Of a DNA stretch of 64,000 bases, positions 33,958 to 42,384 are shown piece after piece. The notes beneath the pieces are model-generated. The model worked only from the letters and a program-made list of their open reading frames with translations, was not told where the DNA came from and searched no databases. The DNA is taken from the NCBI RefSeq assembly GCF_001570765.1, contig NZ_BCSH01000044.1, positions 1 to 64,000 on the forward strand, in the 5' to 3' direction. How positions within the stretch are numbered: position 1 is the stretch's first letter; every line of letters starts with the position of its first letter. The position numbers were made by a program, and so were the translations under genes. The stretch is from Nocardiopsis listeri NBRC 13360 (lineage in GTDB: Bacteria > Actinomycetota > Actinomycetes > Streptosporangiales > Streptosporangiaceae).

Positions 33958-34041
33958 TTCGTGCCTCCGCCAGAACTTCGGCCCACCCGTCGCCCGCCAC
34001 CACCCTCAACGGACGGCCTGACGGCCGACGGTCCTCCTTCT

Positions 34042-34173
34042 TTCGGGCGCCCACCAAGTCAGGAATGGGTTCAAGGAAACACAGCGGCACCTTCGGTGTG
34101 ATAGCGAAAAGCGTGCCATCGCACCTGCGGTGCCCCCCGGGTTTCCCGACAACAGGGCCTGACGGCGCCCGAA
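34042..34173 (+). repeat. 132-bp inverted-repeat element, copy A (MITE-like)
   Basis: It begins TTCGGGCGCC and ends GGCGCCCGAA, perfect 10-bp inverted ends. An inner GTCAGG/CCTGAC pair lies just inside. The reverse complement of copy B (42129-42260) matches it over its length at roughly three-quarters identity, with near-perfect blocks such as GTCAGGAATGGGTT and ACAGGGCCTGACGGCGCC. The two copies are exactly equal in length. There is no coding capacity and no obvious target duplication. It sits 46 nt before thrB. Confidence 0.8.
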
Positions 34174-34219
34174 CCACAACCCCCATGGCCAGGCCTCGGA
34201 GAACCCGCAGGGAGAATAA

Positions 34220-41237: not shown

Positions 41238-42097
41238 ACTTCCTACTCGATGAGGTCGCCCGCGCCACGCTCCGGCTGGCCGAGGCGGGCGTGGCCTCAC
41301 CCCGCACCGACGCCGAGGAACTCGCGGCGTTCGTGCATGGTGTCCGTCGAGGGGAACTGCACTCGGTCGCCGACGCCGACTTCGACGCCCGTTACTGGGA
41401 GTGCGTCTCCCGTAGAGAGGCCCGCGAACCCCTCCAGCACATCACCGGACGCGCCTACTTCCGCTACCTCGAACTCCAGGTCGGGCCCGGTGTCTTCGTG
41501 CCCCGCCCCGAGACCGAGATCATGGTGGACTGGGCGATCGAGACGCTGCGGTCCATGGACGTGGCCGACCCACTGGTCGTGGACCTGGGCTCCGGTTCCG
41601 GGGCCATCGCCATCTCCATCGCCCAGGAGGTACCGCGTTCACGGGTGCACACGGTCGAGATCGATCCCGAGGCGCTGCGCTGGACCCGCCGCAACGTGGA
41701 GTCCAGCGGGCACGCCGATCGGGTGAGAGCCCACGAGGGTGACATGCGTACCGCCCTGCCCGAGCTCGACGGCGGGGTGGACCTGCTCATCAGCAACCCG
41801 CCCTACGTCCCGACCCGGGAGGCGCACGTCATCCCGCCGGAGGTACGCGACTACGACCCGGCCCCGGCGTTGTGGTCGGGCGAGGACGGTCTGGACATGA
41901 TCCGCGACCTGGAGGCGGTCGGCCGTAGGCTGTTGCGTCCGGGCGGGGCCATGGCCATCGAACACCATGACGGTCAGGGCATCGACATTCCCCGGCTGTT
42001 CCCAGAGGACAAGGGCTGGCGTGACGTCCTCAACCATAAGGACATGGCAAGGCGCGACCGCTTCGTGGTCATGCGCCGAGCCGACGAGGACGATTAG
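41234..42097 (+). CDS. prmC: peptide chain release factor N5-glutamine methyltransferase
   Basis: An SAM-dependent methylase of 287 aa. Motif I is [16 protein letters not shown] near residue 116, the acidic site [10 protein letters not shown] follows, and the substrate motif SNPPYVP (NPPY) lies near 187. The N-terminal helical domain includes [20 protein letters not shown]. It modifies the GGQ glutamine of RF1 and RF2. The ATG lies in the prfA stop (ATGA). The gene ends 31 bp before inverted-repeat copy B. Confidence 0.95.
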
Positions 42098-42128
42098 GAT
42101 CTGTTCCGTGAACCACGGAGGGTTGCCG

Positions 42129-42260
42129 TTCGGGCGCCGTCAGGCCCTGTTCTTCGAAAACCCGGGGAGGTGCCGTAGGTGGGATTGCGAGGAACGAGCC
42201 ATCACACCGTAGGTACCGCTGTGTTTCCTTCAACCCATTCCTGACTCCCAGGCGCCCGAA
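42129..42260 (-). repeat. 132-bp inverted-repeat element, copy B (MITE-like)
   Basis: It has the same terminal sequence TTCGGGCGCC at the left and GGCGCCCGAA at the right as copy A (34042-34173). Read as the reverse complement it aligns with copy A end to end. It is exactly 132 bp, with the interior diverged in the middle 30-40 bp. It lies between prmC and tsaC. No reading frame or clear target-site duplication is seen. Confidence 0.8.
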
Positions 42261-42384
42261 CAAGCCAAAGCGAAGCGGAGGCGCAAAGGAGCGCAGCTTA
42301 GCCGCCCTTCGCCCTCACCCCCCAACCCCACCGTCGAACCGACATCTGTCCGGTCGACCCGTTCGAGATCGAGGTGAACCCAGG

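Follow-up and report, generated by a model that had tools for sequence, protein, structure and literature searches.

Two 132-bp blocks of Nocardiopsis listeri very likely belong to a non-autonomous IS5-type MITE family whose core pairing is kept across the genus

Two related blocks, copies A and B, in a stretch of 64,000 nucleotides from Nocardiopsis listeri NBRC 13360 (contig NZ_BCSH01000044.1, positions 1 to 64,000; hereafter the window) are very likely copies of a non-autonomous IS5-type MITE family of Nocardiopsis. Support for this reading comes from copies that are dispersed, from orthologous sites that are empty and from a duplicated TTAG at copy B; for the two blocks, the original prediction had put forward a MITE or else a structured RNA. 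The analysis defines a mobile family of Nocardiopsis, with a likely transposase partner and a target rule, and we found no report of this MITE family among open-licence papers.

Both 132-bp blocks, with the sequence TTCGGGCGCC...GGCGCCCGAA, were recovered at 34042-34173 (copy A) and 42129-42260 (copy B). Their opposite orientation was confirmed in a search of the window, in which copy A aligned over its full length to the reverse complement of copy B (133 columns, 79.7% identity, 2 gap positions, E = 2.3e-27), and the second-best match to copy A had an E-value of 0.076. The family model R1 likewise detected copies A and B in the window with E-values of 1e-26 and 2e-24. It also matched both weakly on the other strands, being self-palindromic, and the only two remaining matches had E-values of 0.056 and 0.24. 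However, 132 bp had been wrongly taken as the limits of the element. Each block forms only the core of a longer element, the flanks of which are common to other copies, and the perfect 10-bp inverted repeats form the base of an internal hairpin, with the ends of copy B lying 31 and 37 bp further out. These repeats were rejected as transposon ends, since the conservation continues through both flanks.

In the alignment of copies, the full element ends as CTAG-GCAGTGTTTTTT...AAAACAGAAC-CTAG. It is apparently non-coding and multi-copy with a length of about 190-250 bp, its terminal inverted repeats are imperfect (CTAGGCAGTGTTTT vs. CTAGGTTCTGTTTT), and no transposase was seen in its interior when the alignments were inspected. 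The genomic copies share the left flank CTAGGCAGTGTTTTTTAGAGCCTCCGCTTCGCTTCGGC, which is joined to the core directly or via a longer arm, and the right flank CGGGTAACCCCCCGTGGTTCACAAAACAGAACCTAG; the core occurs in 132-bp and 118-bp versions with several central stems. Copy B is a complete element of 200 bp on the minus strand (42098-42297), the limits of which follow from its comparison with other aligned copies and from the TTAG repeats on either side. It consists of the left arm with hairpin 1 and the left terminal sequence (42261-42297), the core with hairpin 2 (42129-42260), and the right arm with the right terminal sequence (42098-42128), both arms being placed by the alignment of copies. 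Copy A lies on the plus strand and is recognisable from 33963 to 34193, with approximate outer limits; both tips are lost and no duplication is readable. Its left arm is of the long version (33963-34041), and the core with hairpin 2 (34042-34173) is followed by a degenerate right arm (34174-34193).

The genome that contains the window (G000, 5.69 Mb in 154 contigs) was searched with copy A by BLAST; with 40 of 53 candidates scored, this located at least 48 places at E ≤ 10. At E ≤ 0.001, R1 matched at least 25 of the 40 genomes of the genus, own genome included, with at least 49 matches in G004, at least 41 in G034, at least 36 in G000 and at least 35 in G002; among the candidates scored, no match was found in the other 15. 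A BLAST search of 60 genomes gave matches in the own genome and in at least 6 of 36 congeners, and in none of 23 genomes of other genera among the candidates scored. Moreover, 67 stretches titled Nocardiopsis or Glycomyces fuscus TRM 49117 were returned from a collection of 84,980 species by an exact pattern, which stood for one core version, so that other versions may occur elsewhere. These searches of the own and related genomes revealed many dispersed copies beyond A and B. We also observed another type of element (L234, G000:C56:28699-28944; also L057, L060, and L061), which shares the left arm and its end but differs in the core; it gave at least 39 match rows in G000, many of which were only shared arms. 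In addition, there were short derivatives that have the left and right arm and no core (L233, G000:C18; L235, G000:C52).

The insertion of copy B hit the stop codon of prmC, a TAG that still reads TAG. It is flanked by TTAG on both sides, at 42094-42097, which includes the prmC stop (42095-42097), and at 42298-42301; at this place, TTAG occurs only once in congeners, among them L079 and L080. The prmC-tsaC gap measured 290 bp in the window compared to 25-96 bp in 20 of 22 congeners, and neither model (R1 or R2) found an element in these 20 gaps at E ≤ 0.1. The gaps of G004 (220 bp) and G011 (315 bp) contained diverged relatives. Around copy A, the thrC-thrB gap was without an element in 17 of 22 congeners (R2, E ≤ 0.1), and R1 matched none of the congener gaps, only the copy of the window itself. 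The gaps of G013, G019, G018, G009, and G004 contained diverged or remnant relatives, all in the opposite orientation to copy A. In total, 7 of the 44 congener gaps (5 thrC-thrB and 2 prmC-tsaC) held such relatives, which counts against the MITE reading and indicates that the gaps were repeatedly struck or are of older history. For copy A, the comparison of these gaps would fit either repeated strikes on the thrC-thrB gap or an older history. A different element with the inverted ends GATGATCTTGCTACCAGAGGCG...CGCCTCTGGTAGCAAGATCATC was seen in the thrC-thrB gap of G003, G015, and G007 (L052, L053, and L055).

Eight further copies were each located directly behind an in-frame TAG, in one case that of a gene which is presumably rplA. 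Their orthologous regions, defined as the best DNA match of 121 bases, were searched with one joined query, and at least 32 were found in four congeners, 30 of which are given as loci. The element was absent from 29 of these 30 readable sites, and the single exception was L307 in G019, with a remnant at the same stop. The orthologous intergenic regions thus provided empty sites for copy B and for the eight others. Together with the clean duplication at copy B, many copies and empty sites were found, rather than two copies only and no empty sites. According to heuristic gene calls, 36 of 39 copies face the 3′ end of a gene and none lies between divergent genes, and those with both sides clear and in tandem comprise 16 sense and 6 antisense copies. 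Such a context is consistent with insertion into YTAR at stop codons, where copies would be tolerated. The opposite orientation of A and B had been taken to favour mobility; the mobile reading is upheld by the other evidence, while orientation by itself is weak evidence.

The folding of the two copies gave unequal results. The core of copy A folds at −63.9 kcal/mol, well below its shuffles (z −3.84), whereas copy B barely beats its own (z −1.43). For 28 cores of G000, in an alignment that left out 2 of the 30 near-full cores (L027 and L036), RNAalifold gave only a weak consensus of −15.2 kcal/mol with a covariation term of 0.09. An alignment of mixed long and short forms (A3) had misaligned right halves and was not used. 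In 15 short-form elements from 14 genomes, a set that we selected and from which long-form and odd loci were left out, 20 of 41 pairs were changed on both sides compared to a shuffled mean of 11.4. The covariation score of this set was 0.268, compared to 0.120 when shuffled and at most 0.068 with slid partners. The score of 91 model-aligned matches was 0.308, compared to 0.123 when shuffled and at most 0.077 when slid, a count that leans towards the structure because all matches were aligned to it. This covariation showed that the core pairing is kept across species of the genus. The two-hairpin module occurs in tandem in G004, G034, and G019.

The covariation, taken by itself, may instead stem from template-switch repair between the arms of an imperfect palindrome, and the arms would then match without function or selection. 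We consider this account possible, though tentative. It predicts equal numbers of G-U and A-C, which is roughly as observed, with 53 G-U and 86 A-C cells in the well-paired columns (at cut-offs of our choice and without a positive control) and 86 to 157 over all pairs. One copy in G004 with a perfect long stem also fits it. However, the long stem keeps a T.C mismatch in 79 of 91 copies and a C.T mismatch in 78 of 91, and repair would remove them. A rather doubtful interpretation is that the core is a selected DNA hairpin with a fixed mismatched internal loop and a likewise fixed apical loop, which would be read on either strand by a transposition or host protein. Throughout Nocardiopsis, this hairpin would have travelled between IS5-type ends, where it was exchanged and multiplied in tandem. 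If true, such a core would be an interior structural requirement for IS5-type MITEs, and we know of no requirement of this kind. With the genus-wide covariation of the core, a general question becomes testable, namely for what reason certain bacterial MITEs retain an elaborate fold in their interior.

IS5 is described as duplicating PyTAPu, most often CTAG, followed by CTAA and TTAG (PMC5493358). Both ends were placed by fuzzy match in 13 copies, and 4 of them (L028, L020, L034, and copy B) had by eye identical YTAR bases on both sides, either CTAG or TTAG. The other 9 deviated from this rule by eye, which counts against the IS5-type reading; the flanks were TTAG/CTAG in L024 and L027, and CTAG/CTGG in L026 and L030. 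Some copies lie behind TGA stops and have no TA there, which also counts against the YTAR rule. Because of the TA in the flanks, we at first favoured an IS630/Tc1-mariner-type MITE that duplicates TA within CTAG. Correia and RUP elements are of this type and duplicate TA. L024 and L027 indeed fit TA and not a 4-bp duplication, but in copy B and L034 the full TTAG is duplicated. Furthermore, the own genome gave no match to DDE_3 (PF13358), compared to matches in 3 of 14 genomes in the control, and the MITE ends agree with those of an IS5-family element found in the genus. The absence of DDE_3 from the own genome and the end match set the IS630 reading back, and we now consider it highly improbable.

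PF13340 matches were present in 37 of 40 genomes of the genus. Among 30 loci fetched, L166, L169, L171, and L172 have GCACTGTTTT as a terminus that follows CTAG on one or both sides, with a spacing of about 0.93 kb. The two reading frames of L172 gave matches to the NCBIfam IS5 model (NF033580) as well as to DUF4096 and DDE_Tnp_1. This element may belong to the IS427 group. As judged from the aligned termini, the MITE resembles both ends of the IS5-family element, with 13 of 18 positions shared between the left ends and 13-14 of 18 between the right ends. The shuffle frequency of such a match was at most 0.00035 (per comparison, uncorrected), and the ends of other IS5 groups shared 6-11 of 18 positions with those of the MITE. 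The unseen transposase of the original prediction is most likely one of the IS5 family (DUF4096), with ends that are similar rather than identical. The matching IS is near-complete in at least six congeners (G060, G028, G002, G018, G036, and G004), but its sole reported match in G000 was 77 bp of the right end (88%), and a complete one was not found there (12 of 117 candidates scored). Since only this remnant was found, the family is probably no longer mobile in its own genome. G000 also carries two PF13340 genes of other groups, and one of these may have been the mover of the MITE, although their ends fit worse. The MITE interior is not IS sequence, which counts against a derivation from IS5. 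In L172 (1929-2360), the stop codon of the second frame of the IS5-family element is the TAG of the CTAG flank and is thus supplied by the target. In G034, about 96 bp of the IS right end stand at the termini of several contigs (L228, L229, and L230), and a repeated IS may have interrupted the assembly there.

For the non-autonomous IS5-type MITE that we prefer, we infer that the DDE transposase of the IS5-family element acted in trans on the MITE ends, and that copies would have entered YTAR sites, for the most part CTAG, and duplicated these 4 bp. In this GC-rich genome, many of the YTAR sites within coding sequences are TAG stop codons. The first base of the element is G, so that an insertion at TA would restore TAG and leave the protein unchanged, and copies could thus survive behind genes. 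This would represent a nearly neutral insertion route, in which the TAG stop codon is given back. The interior is a two-hairpin module, the pairing of which has been kept across species.

It is very unlikely that the copies represent a structured RNA of 3′ untranslated regions which is inherited vertically and only seems dispersed, for although the strong covariation and the position of the copies at gene 3′ ends would suit it, the empty orthologous sites and the target duplication, the occurrence of both orientations, the excess of A-C over G-U, where a sense-strand RNA should favour G-U, and the lack of any Rfam match in the elements speak against it. No element scored above the gathering threshold of an Rfam family; the search gave one tRNA only in the window, and in six loci two weak hits at E ≤ 1, both outside the elements. 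Mobile element and structured RNA had been posed as alternatives; mobility and a conserved structure both hold here, and a sense RNA is disfavoured.

Among known systems, Correia elements are also short, dispersed and non-autonomous, but they are of the TA-duplication type, unlike the YTAR type here, and are set apart by description and not by sequence. The terminal sequences and the YTAR target are like those of the IS5 family (NF033580; DUF4096 and DDE_Tnp_1), whereas the present element has no transposase gene and an unrelated interior. ATR of Neisseria, which is described as tied to an IS5-type parent (PMC4596501), is similar as a short dispersed non-autonomous element, a likeness of description and not of sequence. 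BrickBuilt of Porphyromonas gingivalis, as described in the same paper, is a MITE with IS5-type ends, no transposase remnant, predicted long stem-loops, and repeated internal units. Its end sequences differ from those found here, and its stems come from a minisatellite (PMC4596501), whereas the two-hairpin module of the Nocardiopsis element covaries across species and is in tandem only in some copies.
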